Source of the DNA: Peredibacter starrii
Lineage (GTDB): Bacteria; Bdellovibrionota; Bacteriovoracia; Bacteriovoracales; Bacteriovoracaceae
Length of the DNA: 64,000 bases
NCBI RefSeq assembly: GCF_034259205.1
Contig: NZ_CP139487.1
Location: 2,542,001-2,606,000, forward strand
Direction of reading: 5' to 3'
Below the pieces are notes generated by a model. It had not been told where the DNA came from, searched no databases, and saw only the letters and a program-made list of their open reading frames with translations. Position numbers and translations under genes: made by a program. Positions 7,143-45,273 of this stretch are shown here, one piece after another; within the stretch, counting starts at the first letter, position 1, and every line of letters begins with the position of its first letter.

Positions 7143-8198
7143 ATGATTAGACTCTGTATACTTCTGCTTCTGGTGAGTTGTGGTAAACCGATCACAGAAT
7201 CGGGAGACGCAAAAAAATCCGAGAATGCCCTTAAAGAAGGCGTTATTGAGGGTCTCTATCTGGATCAAGGCATGTTCATGAATTTTGATTATCTGCCTCT
7301 GACAGGTGAAATCAAAGATCAGAAAAAACATTGGTCAGGTGATTCCTGGCGTTTAAAGTTTGGTTCAGTCAATTATCGTTGGAACTCTCCCACCCACGAG
7401 ACAAGAAATTATCCCTCGCCTCACCCTAGAGATTTGAAACGGTATTCAATCGATGATTTGAAGCAACTATCTGCCACTGAGAAATATGACTTGTGGCTTG
7501 GTCGCTATGATTACTTCTTGAAAAATCTGGTGGAAAATTATCTGCCTGAGAAACCGCTTGATTGGGAGGGCCTCTGTCACGGGTGGGCCGGCGCCAGTAT
7601 CAACCACAATGAACCACAACCTAAAATGATGATGAACCCGGATGGAATTCTTATTCCATTCGGCTCTGCTGATATTAAAGCTCTTCTCACTTATTATTAC
7701 TCATTGGAGACAGTTCCTGATAGTTTTCAGCTCGGAAAACGCTGCGAAAGCTACCGACCTGTTGATGATGAAAATTGCGATAATGATGTGACTCCTGGAG
7801 AATTTCACACGGTACTGGCCAACAAGTTGGGTCTTCGGGGTGAGAGCTTCATTATGGATATTGATCGCTATCTGGAAGTGTGGAACCATCCGATTATTTC
7901 TTATAACACTCACATTATGAAAGACATCAGAGTGAAAGGTTCCAATCGAAGAGTCATTCTAAGAACGGCCCTCTACTATGTAGATGTGGCCCTGAAAAGT
8001 TCCTGGAATCCAACAATCGGAACACTCTCCCATTTGATTTCAAAACAACAGCTCGACTATGAGTTAGAACTCACGTCAGGTGGAAATATTGTTGGTGGAA
8101 GATGGATATCAAGAGATCGTCCGGACTTTATGTGGACGATTAAAAAGGTCGAAAATTTTACGGGATATTTGTCGGGACTTAATGAGCTAATAAAATAG
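7143..8198 (+). CDS. Lipoprotein of the oomycete-elicitor transglutaminase family
   Basis: A 351-residue protein with a lipoprotein signal (LLLVSC, Cys13), so probably anchored in an outer-envelope leaflet. From memory the core follows the family of the Phytophthora GP42 elicitor (Pfam TGase_elicitor): HWSGDSWRL...VNYRW (63-80), ATEKYDLWLG, WEGLCHGWAGA (141-151), an FGSADIKALLTYYYS segment, TPGEFHTVLANKLG (217-230) and SFIMDID (235-241). Expected catalytic residues are Cys145, His222 and Asp239. The family cross-links glutamine to lysine side chains. A longer paralogue lies at 48399-50063. A strong GGAGG ribosome site precedes the ATG but is paired in a hairpin. Codon use looks less biased than in the paralogue. 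Catalytic activity is inferred. Confidence 0.8.
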   Translation: MIRLCILLLLVSCGKPITESGDAKKSENALKEGVIEGLYLDQGMFMNFDYLPLTGEIKDQKKHWSGDSWRLKFGSVNYRWNSPTHETRNYPSPHPRDLKRYSIDDLKQLSATEKYDLWLGRYDYFLKNLVENYLPEKPLDWEGLCHGWAGASINHNEPQPKMMMNPDGILIPFGSADIKALLTYYYSLETVPDSFQLGKRCESYRPVDDENCDNDVTPGEFHTVLANKLGLRGESFIMDIDRYLEVWNHPIISYNTHIMKDIRVKGSNRRVILRTALYYVDVALKSSWNPTIGTLSHLISKQQLDYELELTSGGNIVGGRWISRDRPDFMWTIKKVENFTGYLSGLNELIK

Positions 8199-35753: not shown

Positions 35754-36428
35754 ATGATCAACATACTCGTAGTTGAAGATGAAAAAAAAGTTTCGGCCTT
35801 CATTCAACAAGGGCTGAAGGAAGTTGGGTACGAAGTAGAAACTGCAGAATCTCCGGGAATCGCGCGCGAATTGATCCGATCAAAAAAGTTTGATCTCTTA
35901 ATCCTCGATGTGATGTTACCTGAGATGAGCGGGATGGATTTCGCCAAAGAATTAAGAGCAAATGGCCACAATGGTTTCATTCTCATGCTCACCGCACTCT
36001 CAACAACTAAAGACAAAATTCAGGGACTCGATTCAGGTGCAGATGATTATCTTGCAAAACCTTTTGAATTCGAAGAGCTCCTTGCTCGTGTAAGAGCACT
36101 CATTCGTAGAAAAAGTGACGACAAAGCACAATTACGTAATGGCGATTTGATCATGGATCTTATCACTCGTAACGTAACTCGCGATGGAATCCGCATTGAA
36201 CTAACAACAAAAGAATTTTCTCTGCTTGAGTTCCTAATGAGAAACCAAGAGAAAGTTATGGACCGTTCGGCCATTGCACGTCAGGTGTGGGGCGCGGACT
36301 TCGATCCTGATTCAAACGTGATTGATGTTTACATCAACCACCTAAGGAAAAAGATCGATAGCCCATATCCTAAGAAAATTTTGAAGACTGTTGTTGGACA
36401 GGGCTACGTCCTGAACAAAATTGACTAG
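35754..36428 (+). CDS. OmpR/PhoB-family response regulator
   Basis: A 224-residue regulator. The receiver domain (1-115) has acidic pocket EDE (8-10), phospho-acceptor Asp52 in LLILDVMLPEMSG, the conserved Thr in LMLTAL and Lys in DYLAKPF. A winged-helix DNA-binding domain (about 130-222) contains TTKEFSLLEFLMRNQEKVMDRSAIARQVWG and YINHLRKKID. Its 3' end overlaps the histidine kinase gene, the normal pairing. A TTGACA lies 60 bases upstream of the ATG (35694), but the matching -10 is weak. Target genes unknown. Confidence 0.93.
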   Translation: MINILVVEDEKKVSAFIQQGLKEVGYEVETAESPGIARELIRSKKFDLLILDVMLPEMSGMDFAKELRANGHNGFILMLTALSTTKDKIQGLDSGADDYLAKPFEFEELLARVRALIRRKSDDKAQLRNGDLIMDLITRNVTRDGIRIELTTKEFSLLEFLMRNQEKVMDRSAIARQVWGADFDPDSNVIDVYINHLRKKIDSPYPKKILKTVVGQGYVLNKID

Positions 36429-37839
36429 ATATTTATTCAACGGCATCAGATTCCGATTAACGTTGGTGTATTCGACGTTATTCGGTCTCTTCATCTGTGC
36501 TTTCGCCTACATCATCACAAACCAGTACCTGCAAGACGGCAGAGCTGATTTTGATCACGGCCTTTTTAACTACGCCATCGACCTTTCAGAACATTTAGAA
36601 GTCGATCATGCGGGCCTGAAGATTAACTTTACACTTCCAGCATCAGAAGACCGTAAGGCCTTCCCGTTCATGCTTCAAGAAACATATTATTTTGTGCGTT
36701 CCATTGATGGAAAAATTATTTCTCGTGGGGACGAAAAATCTCCCTTTGATGAAATCCCCTTTGATCCCACACTTCCGCGCAAAGAAGATTACACTCACCG
36801 CTTTTTTACTTTCAATTCAAATGACCTTCACTACCGGGCGGTGAATTTAAAAATCACAAATCGCTCCGGTAAAAAAGAAATGATCCTCCAGGTGGCCACT
36901 CCTTCGGACGCTCTGGAAGATCAGGAACGCCGCCATCTTGTCATGACGTCCCTCATGGTGCCGATCCTCATCCTTATTTCAAGTTTTGCTTCATATCTCA
37001 TTGCGGGAAATGCCCTGACTCCCATTAAGAGTCTGACGGACACCGCGAATAATATTGCGGCCAAAAACCTTTCTCTTAGAGTTCCTGAAGTGAACACTGG
37101 GGATGAGGTGGCAGAGCTTTCAAAGACCCTTAATAACCTTCTGGAGCGTTTAGAGAAGTCCTTTAAGGCCCAGGAGCATTTCGTATCTAACGCCAGTCAC
37201 CAGCTCAATACTCCCCTTGCCATCATTAAGGGAGAGCTGGATGTTCTTGAATCAAAACCTCGCAACATCGAAGACTATGTTCGTTTTCAAAAATCTCTTC
37301 GCGAAGAGATCAGTCGTCTGATTGAACTTGTGGCCAACATGCTTCTTGTTTCTCGAGTAGAATCAGGTCTGGAAAACTTTATTTTTAACCCGCAAAGAAT
37401 TGATGATCTTCTGCTTACGACTTCATCACGACTGGCCTATAAGTCTCGCGAAAAGAAAGTCACAGTTCGGTTTAATATTTCAGAAGATATTCCGCCTGAA
37501 AGCTTAACCGTAATGGGCGAAAAGCAACTTCTCGATAGCTTGTTTGAAAATATTTTAGATAACGCCATCAAGTACACGCCGGAAAATAGTACGATTCAAA
37601 TCGACATCAAGATTGTTAACGGAAAACTTGAAGTTTGGATCCAGGATGAAGGGCCCGGTATTCTTGGGGATTTCGAAGAGTTCCTTACTAAGCGTTTTCA
37701 CCGAGGCCCTGGAATCAGTATTCCAGGTACCGGAATTGGCCTTCCTATCGCTAACCGTATCGCCGGATACCACAATGCCCAAATTCTTTATGAGCGCCCT
37801 GGCCAAAGAGGCAGTCGATTCATCGTTCGCTTCAATTAA
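36421..37839 (+). CDS. Membrane sensor histidine kinase
   Basis: A 472-residue kinase with two membrane helices (about 12-33 and 173-195) flanking a periplasmic sensor of about 135 residues. HAMP, HisKA and HATPase domains follow. The phospho-acceptor is His260 in SNASHQLNTPLAI, with HQLNTP in place of the usual HELRTP. The ATP lid shows NILDNAIKYTP, DEGPGI and GTGIGLPIA. It starts with TTG inside the response-regulator gene, so the two are co-translated. The signal is unknown. Confidence 0.9.
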   Translation: MTRYLFNGIRFRLTLVYSTLFGLFICAFAYIITNQYLQDGRADFDHGLFNYAIDLSEHLEVDHAGLKINFTLPASEDRKAFPFMLQETYYFVRSIDGKIISRGDEKSPFDEIPFDPTLPRKEDYTHRFFTFNSNDLHYRAVNLKITNRSGKKEMILQVATPSDALEDQERRHLVMTSLMVPILILISSFASYLIAGNALTPIKSLTDTANNIAAKNLSLRVPEVNTGDEVAELSKTLNNLLERLEKSFKAQEHFVSNASHQLNTPLAIIKGELDVLESKPRNIEDYVRFQKSLREEISRLIELVANMLLVSRVESGLENFIFNPQRIDDLLLTTSSRLAYKSREKKVTVRFNISEDIPPESLTVMGEKQLLDSLFENILDNAIKYTPENSTIQIDIKIVNGKLEVWIQDEGPGILGDFEEFLTKRFHRGPGISIPGTGIGLPIANRIAGYHNAQILYERPGQRGSRFIVRFN

Positions 37840-38205: not shown

Positions 38206-41200
38206 GTGATTAAAGTGAAAAATCAACGTCGGAAACTAGAGCCTTACAATCCGAACCTTGGGTTCATTGGAAGCGTTAAAGTCGATGTGGCCAATTACAT
38301 TTTCTCATCAAGGAGAAAAAGGGCCCCCTATAATCACTCGAAAGCTCTGGTAAAAAATCTACTCTCTCGTGAAGTCTCTGTTCACTTGAAAGAGTCGCAG
38401 AACCTTACGAAGTTCATTCGTAAACGCGATCTTACTTTCCAAAAATCAGACGCCAACGGGAACTACAAAATCTTTACGGTTCCATGTACGACTACGATCG
38501 TTCCGTTACAAAAATCAGTTTATAACACGATTGAGAAAGCGGCCCAGTCGCTTATCGTTTCTCTTCGTTGTGTGATCCAGGACATCTACGGTTCTAAGTC
38601 TGTGAAGGACTCTCCATTCGTGAAGTCTCTTCCAGTTGAAATTCGTAAAATCTTCGTAGACGCCATCATGGAGTCTCCGAACTATTTCCCACAACTCCAC
38701 CACCCGAACATGAAGAAATATCCTTTCTTCGATAACGTGGGTCTGGATCTGGTTTTGATCGAAGATTACCTTGAGCAATCAAAGAACTTCGAAAAACTTC
38801 TTAAGGCAAAAAAGACCTCGAAGCTTCCAGAGCTTCCGTTCCGTATCCTTGAGTTGAATGCAGGAGCTCCATCTGGTGCTTCAAACAACATGAACGTACT
38901 TGAGGGCCACTACGAGCAGAACCCTGAGGTTCTAGAATCAATGGGCAAGATGATGCCTAACGATCACTTTCAGGTTCTTGCCGACACTTATAAATCTCTA
39001 GGTGAAGACTGGACCGGTGTAAAAGACGGTATTCAAGTTATTCTACCTCCAGGTGGTATGAACGGTGCCGCTCCTGAGATCCACAACCTTGCTGCTTACT
39101 CTGGTCTTGTTTACGCTGATCCTGTTCAGCTTTTCCAGGACGAGAAAGGTTATATCCGTCTTCGTACGATCAATGGTTCTAATCCGATCGTAACGGCGAT
39201 CTACTCTCGTATTAATGCTGATTCTGCTCTCTTCGATGTGGATAAGGGCATTATCCTTCGTGACCCTGATACGAATGAGCCAATCTACCTTCGCGATTCA
39301 CTTAAACTTGGTGAAGAAGGTGAAGCTCCAATGGTTCTTGATGTTAATGGTGATCCTATTCCTCTTCAATCAGACTACGCAGTTCCAGGTCTTCTGGATG
39401 CTATTTTGAATAAGAAGATCTATATGGGTGGATTAAACCGTATCCTGGATAACAAAATTATCCTGGCGGCCCTAACTACATATGCTCCTAAGTTCTTCGC
39501 TCCTAAGCTTAAAGAACTTGGAATCGCAACTAATGGCCCAAAGATCACTCCCCCTGAAACTCTTCCTCCTAAGAAAGAGTCAGTGAAAGTGATTGAGAAG
39601 AACATGGATGAGTGGGTAATTAAAGCACCTAACCTATCTGGTGGTTCAGGTATCTACATCATGAAGACTCTTTCTGACGAAGCGAAGAAAGAAGTCATGA
39701 ACATGATCAAGAAGAACCCTTCTCACTACGCTTATCAGAAGCTAGTAAAGATCGCTCGTATTCCAGTGGCGATGAAAGATAAGAAAGGTTCTCGTTTTGC
39801 GAACCTTGCGGCCGATATTCGTCTATGGGTGTTCTACGGCGGTGGAGCCAAGGCACTTCCAAAGATGACTCACAACGCTCTTGTCCGTTACGCTCCTGAA
39901 GAGAAAGGACCGATGAGTTCTATCGTGAATACTTCGAAAGGCGGCGGTTATGCTCCGTTCGTGGTGGTTGATGATACAAATTCTTCTGAATCAGTAACTG
40001 CAGCTGAGTACATTAAACAAAAGACTCCGGTTCCTCTACAAACTCACCTTCCGATGTTTGTGGCGGCCCAGTTGATTCAGGTTTCTCGTCTAGCGACTGA
40101 GATCTACAATCACCTCAAAAACAATACGGCCGATAGCTATACACTGCTTGGTCTGGCCCTATCACTTAAGACTCAGTGCCGTGAGGTTCTTTCGTTCCTT
40201 AACCCACGCGCCATTGAGCCGGTTTACAAGATCATTGATGTTCTTGAGGCAAAACAAGCGACAATGGAAATTGCTGCTTTCTTCGAGAAGATCAATACAA
40301 ACCAGATTCAACTCGTGACAACACTAGAGCGTCTTGAATCGAAGAACAAGCTTCCGAAGGGCTTCCGTGACATGATGGATGAGCTTCTGGTTCTGGACCA
40401 GGACATCGTGTACCAGAACTACACAGAAGAAAACCGTAAGCATGACCGCAAGATTCTGAAAAATCTTAAAGCGTCTCTTCTAGAAAAAGCAGGAACGAAT
40501 AAGAAACTTCTGGCAGAATACAATCTTCTGATCTCTGCCCTTCGCGGTAGCATTGAGGCCTCTTTCCCACGTGAATTGGTCACAGGAAAAACGGCCATCA
40601 ACATGATGAAGCTGATTGATACTTTCATGAACATGGTGAGAGAGCGTCTTCAAAACTCTGAAAAGGCGATCGAGTTCGCAAAACTTTTCACTGTTGAGAC
40701 GGTTCACCCTGAACTTAAATTTGAAACTTTTGGTCTTTCAGAAGAAAGCCTTAAAAAGACCTCTGGCTTCTTGTCTGCTTCTCAAAAAGAGTTTGCCACT
40801 GGTGAGCTTCTAACTGAATCAGACTATATCCCTGAGCACATCAAGACCGCTCGTGCTGCCTGGATGAAGATCGAAGCTGAGGCGAAGAAGCTTTCAGCTG
40901 AGAAGAGAAATGCCTTCTTAAATAAAAAGCGCACAGCTCACTTTAAAGAGTTCCCTTTCCTTGCTCGCATGAGCGAGATCATGAACTCTCGTCGCGTGGG
41001 TGTAAAAGATCTGATTGAACTTATGCCGGCCATGCCGTACGCCAAGTACAATCTGGAACAATTTGCCAAGAAACAGGGCCTGACTCTCGAAGGTCTGTTT
41101 GTTAATGAACTGACTCCGAATAAGATCTCAATCCTATCGGGCCAGAAAATCCGTGAAAATCACCTGTCGGCCCGTGAGGACGCTGGTGAGTGTTTTGCTA

Positions 41201-41967
41201 AAAAACGTAAATCACATGGTCTGTTCTCAGACTCAGATATCTTTATCTGGATCAGAAAAGAGCTTGATCCTCTGACTCAGATCTATACTGCTGGTCACGA
41301 GGTGATTCACTACCATCAGATTGAAGAGACAACTAAGCTTGAAGCTCGCGCTCTTTCTGACGGTGCTATTGCTCAGGCCTACTTCTTAAACTTCTACGGA
41401 AACTTCCTGGGAGTTTCGGCCGCTTCTCTTGAGGGTCTTTCAGTAGACATCTCAGTTGAACGTCAGCCGCTTTATGGTCTAGCTGATCGAATTGTGCCTT
41501 ACTTCTTCACGAACCTCATCACTGAGATTCGTGATGGTATCAATAGCTCTCGCGAAGACTACGATGCGATCCTGAATAAATATGGCTCACTCTTCGGTTA
41601 TATGATGCCGAACTCTAACCAAGTTAAGGTGAAGGCCCTACAGGAAATCATTCCGGCACTGGAAAACGCCAAGAACATTCTCTTTGCTAAAGAGCTTGGT
41701 CTTGAAATCGGTTGGGACGAAATTCGCTCGGCCCTTCCATCTGCAAACGACATGCAGATTAAGTTAAATACGCCAAAAATCATGAGGGCCATTAAGAAAG
41801 CTCGTCCTGATTATGAAGCATTGACCGCCATTGGAAACCATCAGTTCTACGGTGTGAGTTTCGCCCGTAAACTTGAGCTTTCAAAATCGATCACACTACG
41901 TCCGATTTTGAGCACGATTTCCCTTGGAAATAGTTACAACCAAACTCAACAGCAGCAGCAACAGTAA
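38206..41967 (+). CDS. Giant fusion protein: circularly permuted ATP-grasp-like half plus C-terminal HExxH domain
   Basis: A 1253-residue protein without signal peptide. The N-terminal half has motifs I associate with circularly permuted ATP-grasp ligases (DUF404/DUF407 group): LELNAGAPSGASNN (215-228), VILPPGGMNGAAPEIHNLAAYSG (two parts, 278-300), IKAPNLSGGSGIYIM (472-486), and DIRLWVF with NTSKGGGYAPFVVV (537-588). A helical middle (about 610-900), reminiscent of the alpha-E partner domain, follows. Near the end TAGHEVIHYH (HEVIH 1031-1035) is a zinc-protease-type motif. The last residues are a run of glutamines. The start is GTG after GGAGAGG. Enzymatic roles (peptide-bond ligation, proteolysis) are inference. 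It heads a three-gene unit. Confidence 0.8.
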   Translation: MIKVKNQRRKLEPYNPNLGFIGSVKVDVANYIFSSRRKRAPYNHSKALVKNLLSREVSVHLKESQNLTKFIRKRDLTFQKSDANGNYKIFTVPCTTTIVPLQKSVYNTIEKAAQSLIVSLRCVIQDIYGSKSVKDSPFVKSLPVEIRKIFVDAIMESPNYFPQLHHPNMKKYPFFDNVGLDLVLIEDYLEQSKNFEKLLKAKKTSKLPELPFRILELNAGAPSGASNNMNVLEGHYEQNPEVLESMGKMMPNDHFQVLADTYKSLGEDWTGVKDGIQVILPPGGMNGAAPEIHNLAAYSGLVYADPVQLFQDEKGYIRLRTINGSNPIVTAIYSRINADSALFDVDKGIILRDPDTNEPIYLRDSLKLGEEGEAPMVLDVNGDPIPLQSDYAVPGLLDAILNKKIYMGGLNRILDNKIILAALTTYAPKFFAPKLKELGIATNGPKITPPETLPPKKESVKVIEKNMDEWVIKAPNLSGGSGIYIMKTLSDEAKKEVMNMIKKNPSHYAYQKLVKIARIPVAMKDKKGSRFANLAADIRLWVFYGGGAKALPKMTHNALVRYAPEEKGPMSSIVNTSKGGGYAPFVVVDDTNSSESVTAAEYIKQKTPVPLQTHLPMFVAAQLIQVSRLATEIYNHLKNNTADSYTLLGLALSLKTQCREVLSFLNPRAIEPVYKIIDVLEAKQATMEIAAFFEKINTNQIQLVTTLERLESKNKLPKGFRDMMDELLVLDQDIVYQNYTEENRKHDRKILKNLKASLLEKAGTNKKLLAEYNLLISALRGSIEASFPRELVTGKTAINMMKLIDTFMNMVRERLQNSEKAIEFAKLFTVETVHPELKFETFGLSEESLKKTSGFLSASQKEFATGELLTESDYIPEHIKTARAAWMKIEAEAKKLSAEKRNAFLNKKRTAHFKEFPFLARMSEIMNSRRVGVKDLIELMPAMPYAKYNLEQFAKKQGLTLEGLFVNELTPNKISILSGQKIRENHLSAREDAGECFAKKRKSHGLFSDSDIFIWIRKELDPLTQIYTAGHEVIHYHQIEETTKLEARALSDGAIAQAYFLNFYGNFLGVSAASLEGLSVDISVERQPLYGLADRIVPYFFTNLITEIRDGINSSREDYDAILNKYGSLFGYMMPNSNQVKVKALQEIIPALENAKNILFAKELGLEIGWDEIRSALPSANDMQIKLNTPKIMRAIKKARPDYEALTAIGNHQFYGVSFARKLELSKSITLRPILSTISLGNSYNQTQQQQQQ

Positions 41968-41986
41968 GTTCTGCAGGATTTAAGTT

Positions 41987-44218
41987 ATGAGACTCGAACT
42001 ACTGACAGCTGATATTCCAAAACTCCAACCGTTTCTGGAAACTGTTTTCCAGGACGGTGGTAAGAAGCTTTACGCCATTGATGGTGTAGTGACTCCTATC
42101 CGTAATATGGGTGGGCTTTCGGGCTTTGAATACAAGGAAGATGGCCTCATTGGTGAATTGAAAGTGGGCCTCATTCTTGGTGGAACCGGCTACGTCTTAA
42201 AACGCATTCTTAGAAACAGTGGCGAAGAATATGAGCGCTATGATTACTTCAACGTTCAAGGGGACATCACGTTCACTTCGGACAAAGAAGCTCTCAAGGC
42301 CGCCATTCCAGATTTCCATGAAATGGATCTCACTTGTCCAATCCTAAACCACTTCTACAATTTCCTTTCCATGGAATATAAGAACGCGGCGGAAGGAAAA
42401 ACTAATACTCAGATCGTAAATTCTGTTGAGCAGCTTTTAAAAACTGCCTACAACTCTAAGCTTATTCGTATTTCTATCCGCGAACGCGCCGATGATCCGG
42501 CGATTAACAACATCTACAACAAGATCCTTGCTGCTGAAATGGACCCGGTTCTTACCTGGGAAGAGCGTCAACTGGTTTTCAAGAATTATAAAGTTGATCT
42601 CAAAAGAATTGTTGATACCAAGGTTCGTGCTCACAAATTAAATAAGACCCGCATGAAGCTCGCTCTTCTGAGAAAAGACGGCGGAAACTTCATGGCCCGT
42701 ATCATTGCCCGTCCTGTAAACAACGCCAAGGGACTTCTCTATCGTTATACTGTGGGCAAGGTCATTTGGTTCTTCCAGACAGTGAAAAACAATCTGGGCT
42801 ACTCGATCGCTTTAGCGGTTTATGGACCGTTCACATACTATTTTATTACGATGCCAATGAACCCGCATGCGATGCAGGCGGTAGGACGTGTACGCGCGAC
42901 TTATCTTGAAGTTAAAACTGAAATCATGCAGATTCTTGATAAGAGCGATGTGGCGATCAATGATATGCGCAGTAAATCTGCCATTGCGACCACGACAACT
43001 CCTGCTCCTACGCTTCCGGTTCAGGCGACTGATACGGTATCAACCAAGAGCGCAGCTCCGGCCAATAATAATGACTTCATCATGGCCAATATTATCAATC
43101 CATCTGAAGTGACAAATGGAAAAGTTGACTCACTTCTGGTGAGTTTGGGTGATGGCGCGACTGAGAAGGCCAAGCCATCTATCTTAAACATGCTTTTATC
43201 AACTGACTCAGACCAAGTGAATAAGACCTCTTGGAGTGAGCGTATGAGTAACTTTAAGCAGCTTCAAATCGCCTACGAAGAGAACATTGAATACGCCTCA
43301 CGTATGGGCCGTCTTGAGCAGCTAGAAACTCAATATAACTTCCCGATGCAGGTAGAAGCGACTTGGGAAGAACTCGAGCGCTATAACAATCTTATTTTCA
43401 AACTTCGCGAAGAAAATCCAAATATGTCGGCGAAGATGAAGCAATATCTCTTCAACGAGATCAACCGTACCCAGCAGCTTGAGCTTTATCTTTGGGATAG
43501 AATGTCGCGCTTTATCCTCGATCAAATCTACGTAATGCTCGATCAAGACAAAGAACAAAAGCGTAGTGACTACTACGTGGGCCGCTCATTTGTGTTCATG
43601 GAAGAGATGACTAATATTCTTTCATGGCGTTACAAGGATTTCAAAAAGCCAGAGGGCTATGACAAGATCCAAAAACTTGCTGAGTTTTATTCAAATGCTC
43701 GCAAAGAACATGGAACTGTGCTGAAGAACCTTCAGGCAAACTCTGATTTGTTTAAACAGAAAAATGTTTATGACACAAAAGAGTTCCGCAGCTATATGAA
43801 GCGTCAGTGGGAAATCCTATTCTTACAGAACTCGAAAGCAGAAGAAGCTTCGAATATGGGTCTGAATATGTACATCTGGTCTGTGCGAAACACAGTATGG
43901 ATTCTTCAGTCGATCTATTCAGCGAAGCGTGAAGAGCTGGCACTTCTGATCAAGCGCGATGTCTCAGGACAAGCATTGACACCGGCCGAGATGCTCAGTC
44001 GTTCAAAAGCAAATATGCTCTTCGAGACCCTTCTCCACAATCTCACTCTTGAGTACGTGGGGATCAGAGAGGAGATCATGAATCGTCTCGGAAAAGATAT
44101 TGAATCAACTCAGAGAATGATCGTGATCGACAACTTGAAAGAGTTTTTATCAGACCGGGAAAAATTAGATAACCTCGGCGTGGCCCAAAACCAAAAAACC
44201 GCAGGACACACTCTATGA
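41987..44218 (+). CDS. Unknown 743-residue protein with one transmembrane helix
   Basis: I recognise no family. The first 260 residues are a soluble alpha/beta-looking region (GLSGFEYKEDGLIGELKVG...RYDYFNVQGDITF) with many charged helices after it. One hydrophobic segment lies at about 270-290 (GYSIALAVYGPFTYYFITMPM). A Thr/Ala/Pro-rich flexible linker follows (about 332-362). The C-terminal half is a long helical, partly coiled-coil region. With no signal peptide, the N-terminal part is probably cytoplasmic and the C-terminal part periplasmic, or the reverse. It lies 19 bases after the ATP-grasp fusion gene and overlaps the barrel gene, so it could bridge the two. Confidence 0.7.
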   Translation: MRLELLTADIPKLQPFLETVFQDGGKKLYAIDGVVTPIRNMGGLSGFEYKEDGLIGELKVGLILGGTGYVLKRILRNSGEEYERYDYFNVQGDITFTSDKEALKAAIPDFHEMDLTCPILNHFYNFLSMEYKNAAEGKTNTQIVNSVEQLLKTAYNSKLIRISIRERADDPAINNIYNKILAAEMDPVLTWEERQLVFKNYKVDLKRIVDTKVRAHKLNKTRMKLALLRKDGGNFMARIIARPVNNAKGLLYRYTVGKVIWFFQTVKNNLGYSIALAVYGPFTYYFITMPMNPHAMQAVGRVRATYLEVKTEIMQILDKSDVAINDMRSKSAIATTTTPAPTLPVQATDTVSTKSAAPANNNDFIMANIINPSEVTNGKVDSLLVSLGDGATEKAKPSILNMLLSTDSDQVNKTSWSERMSNFKQLQIAYEENIEYASRMGRLEQLETQYNFPMQVEATWEELERYNNLIFKLREENPNMSAKMKQYLFNEINRTQQLELYLWDRMSRFILDQIYVMLDQDKEQKRSDYYVGRSFVFMEEMTNILSWRYKDFKKPEGYDKIQKLAEFYSNARKEHGTVLKNLQANSDLFKQKNVYDTKEFRSYMKRQWEILFLQNSKAEEASNMGLNMYIWSVRNTVWILQSIYSAKREELALLIKRDVSGQALTPAEMLSRSKANMLFETLLHNLTLEYVGIREEIMNRLGKDIESTQRMIVIDNLKEFLSDREKLDNLGVAQNQKTAGHTL

Positions 44219-45273
44219 AAATCAATCGGAAAGGACTCTCTTCACAGATTCTCATCGCGGCCATGGCCGGCTCAGTTCTGATGTTCATGCTTCAAGCGGC
44301 GCGAGCTCAATCAAACGATCAGGCCCTGCAGAACATGCAGAGTAACAACAGCAGTAATGCGGCCCTGGCACAGGCATCAGGTGCAAACCAAACTTACCAA
44401 AGCTCGAACACGGGCCAGGTTCTTCAAATCGGCATGCCTCAGAAAAGTCTTGGCCGCCGTCTTTGGGAGAACACTTCCCTCTCATACTATCAACAGTTCC
44501 TCGGACCTACTGCCGCTGGCGGTGGTAACACGTACAACGTGTTCCAGGAGGGTCTAGATACTCCAAACTCGGGCTTTGCTCCTATGCAAAGTTTCCATGC
44601 TGTGAACCTTCGTCACCAGATCAATACTGACTGGGCAGTGGGTGCGACTCTTTCAGCGGCTAACGGATATACTAAAGAAGTTAATAATAAAGATCGTAGC
44701 GGCGGCACTTTCACTAACAGACCTGATAGTGAGTTCTTCAACGCCCGCGCCTATGTGAGTCTACCGTCTCTTCGTTTTGCGGCCGGTACACTTTTCTCAA
44801 CTCTTTCATATGAATTCCCGACTTCGGAAATTTCGAAAGATGATGAAATGCGCTTTGGTTGGGTGGCCTCGAATAGTTTTGCTTTCAATCTACCGAACCT
44901 TCACTGGAACGTAGGTCTTATGAGTCAGATCTATCGTATTTATTATAATAATAACGTGAAGGCCGCTCCATTCGTTGGTGGTAGACCAACTGCTCTTCAA
45001 ACGATGATTGTGAGTGGTGGTCCTTATGCCAACTATCGCTTCAACGATAAGTGGCAAGTGGGTTCAGTGATCACAATGGACTGGGACCAGCGTGGTGCTC
45101 AGACGGGTTCACGTGACTTCAACAACAACCTTTCTCACAGAGGAAGACTGTCGCTGACGTATTTCCCTCAGCAGATCAAGTATCTTCAAAGTGTAGGATT
45201 GTTCTCTCAGGCGCTTTTGAAGTTCCGTCCGGAAACGACGGCCTTTGGTGCTGACTTCGCTGTTCGCTTCTAG
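44215..45273 (+). CDS. Outer-membrane beta-barrel protein
   Basis: A 352-residue protein with a signal peptide (LIAAMAGSVLMFMLQAARA-Q) and an Asn/Gln/Ser-rich stretch of about 40 residues. A series of alternating amphipathic strands follows (for example SFHAVNLRHQINTDWAVGATLSAA). The end is FGADFAVRF, with the C-terminal Phe typical of BAM-assembled barrels. About 12 strands are plausible. It overlaps the preceding gene by four bases (ATGA), completing a cytoplasm / inner-membrane / outer-membrane set. Its stop codon shares a CTAG palindrome with the convergent L,D-transpeptidase gene. Function unknown: pore, adhesin or structural link. Confidence 0.75.
   Translation: MKINRKGLSSQILIAAMAGSVLMFMLQAARAQSNDQALQNMQSNNSSNAALAQASGANQTYQSSNTGQVLQIGMPQKSLGRRLWENTSLSYYQQFLGPTAAGGGNTYNVFQEGLDTPNSGFAPMQSFHAVNLRHQINTDWAVGATLSAANGYTKEVNNKDRSGGTFTNRPDSEFFNARAYVSLPSLRFAAGTLFSTLSYEFPTSEISKDDEMRFGWVASNSFAFNLPNLHWNVGLMSQIYRIYYNNNVKAAPFVGGRPTALQTMIVSGGPYANYRFNDKWQVGSVITMDWDQRGAQTGSRDFNNNLSHRGRLSLTYFPQQIKYLQSVGLFSQALLKFRPETTAFGADFAVRF

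Follow-up and report, generated by a model that had tools for sequence, protein, structure and literature searches.

Organization of the Locus

The window analyzed here, i.e., a stretch of 64,000 nucleotides from Peredibacter starrii (contig NZ_CP139487.1, positions 2,542,001 to 2,606,000), carries three adjacent open reading frames on the + strand, numbered g1, g2 and g3 and collectively referred to as the trio. The first of them, g1 (38206..41967, +), starts with GTG and encodes a protein of 1253 aa that combines a permuted ATP-grasp part, a helical region, a region with an HExxH motif and a glutamine tail. It is followed after 19 bases by g2 (41987..44218, +), encoding a predicted inner-membrane protein of 743 aa with no matching family, which overlaps by four bases (ATGA) with g3 (44215..45273, +), encoding a predicted outer-membrane beta-barrel of 352 aa with a signal peptide and a C-terminal phenylalanine. 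The gene set of an earlier sequence-only reading, including the sizes, the gap and the overlap, was reproduced by our ORF calling.

Comparison of the window with locus L033 indicated purifying selection (dN of 0.08 for g1 and 0.18 for g2, with dS saturated), and together with the co-occurrence of g1 and g2 in 58/58 genomes this places the three-gene observation far beyond chance. Scans of the region for promoters and terminators gave no more matches than expected by chance, and no Rfam element was found in it. The identity of the trio as a defence system was rejected, since no PADLOC profile matched g1, g2 or g3.

The ATP-Grasp and HExxH Regions of g1

The ATP-grasp fold occupies residues ~26-589 of g1 (38281..39972, +), as delimited by Pfam, alignment and structure match. 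PF14403 (CP_ATPgrasp_2) scored 73.1 bits (E 2.7e-20), above the curated threshold of 32, and PF04174 scored 45.8 bits against a cut-off of 23.1, while 3n6x was the sole match of g1 in a sequence search of the PDB (E 3e-7). The structure model employed was that of the L053 orthologue (1200 residues, 58% identical to g1, pLDDT 87, pTM 0.87), which superposed on 3n6x with a Z of 28.2 over 439 aligned residues (rmsd 2.8), followed by glutathione synthetases (Z 18-19) and bifunctional glutathionylspermidine synthetases (Z ~14); Foldseek with the same model returned an E of 2e-16. Residues E216, N218, K417 and K473 are invariant in all 34 rows of the g1 alignment, and so are GG.G 479-482, Q511, D537, R539 and NTS 575-577, so that the nucleotide- and metal-site residues are kept even in distant homologues. 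We assign g1 to the circularly permuted ATP-grasp enzymes. Its ligase chemistry is well supported, and an active enzyme is predicted. The permuted motifs claimed previously are thus borne out, and the fold was present in residues 200-600, the span for which this check had been set beforehand.

The helical region that follows (residues ~617-815; 40054..40650, +) matched generic helix bundles only. The C-terminal region (residues 881-1253; 40846..41964, +) is a putative zinc peptidase with the motif HEVIH at residues 1031-1035 (41296..41310, +), in line with the HExxH fusion proposed earlier, and with E1046 (41341-41343, +) as the candidate third zinc ligand. HExxH was found in every row of trio-type g1, the form without a signal peptide, in which H1031, E1032, H1035 and E1046 are conserved. 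The region shows weak likeness to DUF6782 (PF20573), a putative metallopeptidase family: the g1 of the window scored 16.4 bits, below the 27-bit cut-off, and weak matches were obtained in 15/19 members (best E 5.9e-5). As this likeness is below the cut-off and a PDB sequence search with the HExxH region gave no match, we consider a zinc peptidase likely rather than proven.

A Conserved Glutamine Tail

The most unexpected feature of g1 is its C-terminal tail, which reads YNQTQQQQQQ in the window (41935..41964, +). Gln-Gln forms the C-terminal end of all 44 trio-type g1 proteins examined; QQ is the shortest form in relatives, YNQTQQ is the commonest end, and up to eight Gln occur in some trio-type proteins. 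Five distant exported homologues also end in Gln-Gln and other exported homologues do not. Across these 44 trio-type and five exported proteins, the last two codons show all four CAA/CAG combinations (16, 13, 12, and 8 cases) and the genes use all three stop codons, showing that selection works at the protein level. An RNA or slippage effect was rejected for the same reasons and because Rfam elements are missing from the region. A general sorting signal was also discarded, as a CARx4-TRA scan of the genome itself, covering tails of at least four Gln codons before TAA or TGA, gave three matches, among which only that of g1 was a gene end. In the L053 model the tail has a pLDDT of ~84, suggesting that it packs against the enzyme. 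Being exact and small, the Gln-Gln end offers a handle for experiments.

The Predicted Envelope Proteins g2 and g3

In g2, residues 269-303 (42791..42895, +), NLGYSIALAVYGPFTYYFITMPMNPHAMQAVGRVR, form a membrane segment that is nearly invariant across 31 homologues. In nearly all 31 of them, its core (272-290) ranks first or second in membrane character, with octanol-scale values from -6.8 to -10.6. The Kyte-Doolittle value is only ~1.3, the segment being aromatic rather than strongly hydrophobic, and for this reason the helix is rated as probable, not certain. Basic residues precede it, which predicts a cytoplasmic N-terminus. C-terminal to the segment lies a low-complexity linker rich in Ala, Thr and Pro (residues 323-366; 42953..43084, +), modeled as flexible and disordered with a pLDDT below 50. 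Both elements agree with the single membrane helix and flexible linker described for g2 earlier. No family was found for g2 in Pfam, Foldseek with its model gave no match at E <= 0.001, and VIA-align returned helix-bundle matches only (best Z 8.9). No motor, channel or sensory domain was recognized in g2, and a search for it on plasmids gave no match. A short second g2-like gene, covering profile positions 17-331 only, was observed at G328:C238:63918-64871 in a genome that also carries the full unit.

The g3 protein starts with a signal peptide ending in ARA and terminates in ..ADFAVRF, and in most lineages its homologues have similar aromatic beta-signal ends (all judged by eye). Pfam and PDB searches gave no family covering g3. 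These termini make an outer-membrane beta-barrel probable, as had been predicted, and the distribution of g1, g2 and g3 over cytoplasm, inner membrane and outer membrane envisaged earlier fits the sequences. Two weak g3-like matches lie elsewhere in the same genome (G000:C1:3848269-3848847 and 3661701-3662033).

Distribution of the Trio and of Distant g1 Homologues

A g2 profile gave matches in 58 of 369 genomes of the phylum, and trio-type g1 was found in the same 58, which belong to three families and 12 genera; the two genome sets were compared by reading the two lists, and no signal peptide was seen on trio-type g1 in the loci read. Since these genomes are related, they do not represent 58 independent events. 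The gene order is g1-g2-g3 in family f26, while in family f22 g1 is inverted, so that it points away from g2-g3 but is still their neighbour. Wherever the contig is long enough, g3 comes next after g2, with the exception of L070, where g2 has no g3 beside it. That the genes remain neighbours despite rearrangement, and do so in separate families, is strong evidence, and the three genes, whose staying together in related genomes had been set beforehand as a check, do so in three families. In the tree, a branch with support of 100/99 separates trio-type g1 from the other homologues.

On the other side of this division, a signal peptide or lipobox, identified by eye, stands at the start of most g1 homologues. 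An exception is L072, a distant homologue that has no signal peptide and no g2 beside it. None of the distant homologues has g2 or g3 nearby, and g2 is absent from every genome having only distant homologues. According to the 34-row alignment, the ATP-grasp residues are retained in these proteins, and where the C-terminus is long an HExxH is present as well, in other surroundings. Apparently exported permuted ATP-grasp enzymes with intact catalytic residues are encoded, among others, at L073 (7604-10870), L075 (8626-12150), L124 (6005-9466), L126 and L129. Since ATP is normally confined to the cytoplasm, such enzymes are puzzling and raise the question of their ATP source. In L071 (8698-12179) the reading frame of an exported homologue changes ahead of the HExxH part, leaving two pieces, the second of which ends in QQQ; both an assembly error and a real break are possible.

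Recurrent Neighbours

Downstream of the trio lie genes for an exported protein-glutamine-deamidase-like protein (PF18626; 47323..48225, -) and an exported transglutaminase-elicitor-like protein (PF16683; 48399..50063, +), both carrying signal peptides. PF16683 was found beside the units of nearly all loci of the genus, L050, L078, L070 and loci of f22 and f26, and PF18626 in the window, L049/L059, L050, L078, seven f22 loci and L121. The trio genomes tested contain ~2-12 PF18626 matches and ~4-11 PF16683 genes each, and from these counts we estimate that, per genome, a neighbour would fall within a 17-kb stretch by chance in ~1-6% of cases. On the branch L054-L069, neither family is present near most units. 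The sequence-only reading had pointed to a transglutaminase and an L,D-transpeptidase; the former recurs in several genera, while the latter is not conserved with the unit and was rejected as a part of it, its occurrences being ~10 loci within the genus, a single close relative and two contigs that carry solo homologues. The Gln tail and the glutamine-deamidase-like neighbour go beyond that reading.

Further occurrences of these families were observed. The genome of the window has eight transglutaminase-elicitor genes and twelve Gln-deamidase matches, and neither family was found in any of 14 control genomes. A second transglutaminase-elicitor gene lies in the window itself at 7563-8144 (+), corresponding to 2549563-2550144 of the genome. 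In L054, L057, L065-L069 and L079 the unit stands beside a conserved pair of an exported protein and a lipoprotein; in the former, the signal peptide is often followed by ..AQYYKTLPKGVR and the C-terminal residues are FRMFF-like. A Pfam search with the L067 members of the pair returned no family. Finally, a response regulator and a histidine kinase (35754..37839, +) located upstream of g1 are possible regulators. Two-component genes flank many units, their subfamilies differ between lineages, and they may be incidental.

Possible Function of the Trio

We tentatively favor, with somewhat less than even confidence, that the trio works as one unit, in which an amide ligase with a built-in hydrolase is tied via the inner to the outer membrane and makes or alters a peptide-type envelope product. 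In such a unit, g1 would be a cytoplasmic ATP-dependent amide (peptide) ligase and its fused putative zinc hydrolase could trim or edit the ligase product. The N-terminal domain of g2 is predicted on the cytoplasmic side of the helix and the long helical part past the linker in the periplasm; g2 would dock g1 at the inner membrane by physical contact and reach towards g3, the presumed barrel in the outer membrane. The product may be an amide-linked short peptide, an amino-acid oligomer or a peptide-tagged protein placed in the outer envelope, and the exported enzymes resembling transglutaminase and deamidase may have this glutamine-rich material as a target. The Gln-Gln end of g1, predicted to pack back against the enzyme, may be a primer, a substrate mimic or an inhibitor of either active site. 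This proposal is supported by the ATP-grasp fold of g1 with its intact catalytic residues, by the HExxH motif of all trio-type g1 and its weak DUF6782 likeness in 15/19 members, and by the co-occurrence of g1 and g2, their adjacency even where g1 is inverted, the position of g3 next to g2 and the well supported branch. It is also supported by the conserved membrane segment preceding the g2 linker, by the signal peptide and beta-signal of g3, and by Gln-acting neighbours that recur in several genera though they are rare per genome. Moreover, a precedent is provided by the Rlo system (PMC12239564), where a cytoplasmic ATP-grasp protein cooperates with a partner in the inner membrane and with a secreted protease. 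Against the proposal stand the lack of g3 in L070 and of Gln-acting neighbours near most units of one family branch, as well as the below-cut-off DUF6782 likeness of the HExxH region and its lack of PDB sequence matches. In addition, g2, with a single helix and no recognized motor or channel fold, offers no evident route for a product across the inner membrane.

A different reading of the signal-peptide distribution, which we consider unlikely, is that g2 and g3 serve to assemble or export g1 itself, so that the whole protein or just its C-terminal part would end up within the envelope or outside it. It would account for the strict split, as g2 is present in 58/58 genomes with trio-type g1 and in none with only distant homologues, while the distant homologues mostly possess ordinary signal peptides, stand without g2/g3, keep the ATP-grasp residues and, in L074 and L124, are followed by a transglutaminase-elicitor gene on the same strand. 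However, a folded enzyme of 1253 aa would need a large channel, g2 has a single membrane helix, g1 has no known secretion signal, the usual absence of ATP outside the cytoplasm argues against such a location, and L072 is a distant homologue with neither a signal peptide nor a g2 beside it.

A low probability is also assigned to a ligase/hydrolase couple acting on cytoplasmic proteins or metabolites under the control of g2/g3 as an envelope-stress sensor, by analogy with RimK/RimB or glutathionylspermidine synthetase/amidase. The nearest folds are indeed glutathione and glutathionylspermidine synthetases, the latter being ligase/hydrolase fusions as well, and two-component genes stand beside the unit in many loci; however, these regulators vary with lineage and may be incidental, and g2 contains no recognized sensory domain. 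Quite improbable, in our view, is an envelope conjugation system in which the Gln-Gln tail of the ligase itself would be the primer or attachment end, and g2/g3 would present the tail or the product across both membranes; if true, the distant homologues, being exported ATP-grasp enzymes, would carry out this chemistry beyond the cytoplasm. The least probable alternative is a Pup-like self-tag, whereby the Gln-Gln end of g1, after deamidation or activation, would be linked to an envelope protein by the ligase or the transglutaminase, thus anchoring g1 or a C-terminal fragment that the HExxH part could free; the constant Gln-Gln end with free codon and stop choice in 44/44 trio-type and five exported proteins and the glutamine-acting neighbours speak for it, but these neighbours have signal peptides and may never encounter g1, which lacks one, the ordered tail of the model favors a role inside the enzyme, and several exported homologues end without Gln-Gln. 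Given the strict co-occurrence of g1 with dedicated inner- and outer-membrane proteins, the question of location can be tested by gene deletion.

Comparison With Known Systems

Many bacteria possess ATP-grasp ligases with partners of the transglutaminase type, and few of their products are known. As already mentioned, g1 shares its fold and catalytic residues with the permuted ATP-grasp type 2 proteins (PF14403/PF04174, 3n6x). Operons combining such a protein with alpha-E, transglutaminase and Anbu are described in PMC6376114, which cites Iyer 2009, and the ATP-grasp protein of an Anbu operon was found to release phosphate from ATP (PMC6376114). A transglutaminase-type neighbour is common to these operons and the trio, whereas the fused HExxH region, the Gln tail, g2, g3 and the exported PF16683 neighbour set the trio apart. 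Alpha-E (PF04168), which the sequence-only reading had named as a partner, was absent from all eight trio genomes tested, while the same search detected it in two control genomes.

The nearest system in logic is Rlo (RloA/B/C) of Pseudomonas aeruginosa, which is made up of a cytoplasmic ATP-grasp protein, a partner in the inner membrane and a protease that is secreted (PMC12239564); the trio resembles it in its ATP-grasp protein, predicted inner-membrane partner and putative protease function. However, the membrane protein and the protease of Rlo belong to other families. RloB is an inactive transglutaminase with seven helices, whereas g2 matches no transglutaminase family and shows a single probable membrane segment; the retropepsin family, the type of the secreted Rlo protease, was not found among g1, g2, g3 and the four following genes of the window; and the Rlo operon as reported has no outer-membrane protein, in contrast to the predicted barrel g3.

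Glutathionylspermidine and trypanothione synthetase-amidases (2io9, 2vps) likewise unite an ATP-grasp ligase with an amide hydrolase in one chain (fold match with Z ~14), while the putative hydrolase of g1 is the C-terminal HExxH region. RimK/RimB also pair an ATP-grasp ligase with a protease, which is putative in g1, and act on a protein C-terminus (PMC12239564); however, they belong to another ATP-grasp subgroup and have no membrane partners. Our literature search found no paper linking Bdellovibrio, ATP-grasp and transglutaminase. The Gln-Gln end of all trio-type g1 proteins, the signal peptides of most distant homologues together with their lack of g2/g3, and the recurrent glutamine-acting neighbours are new.
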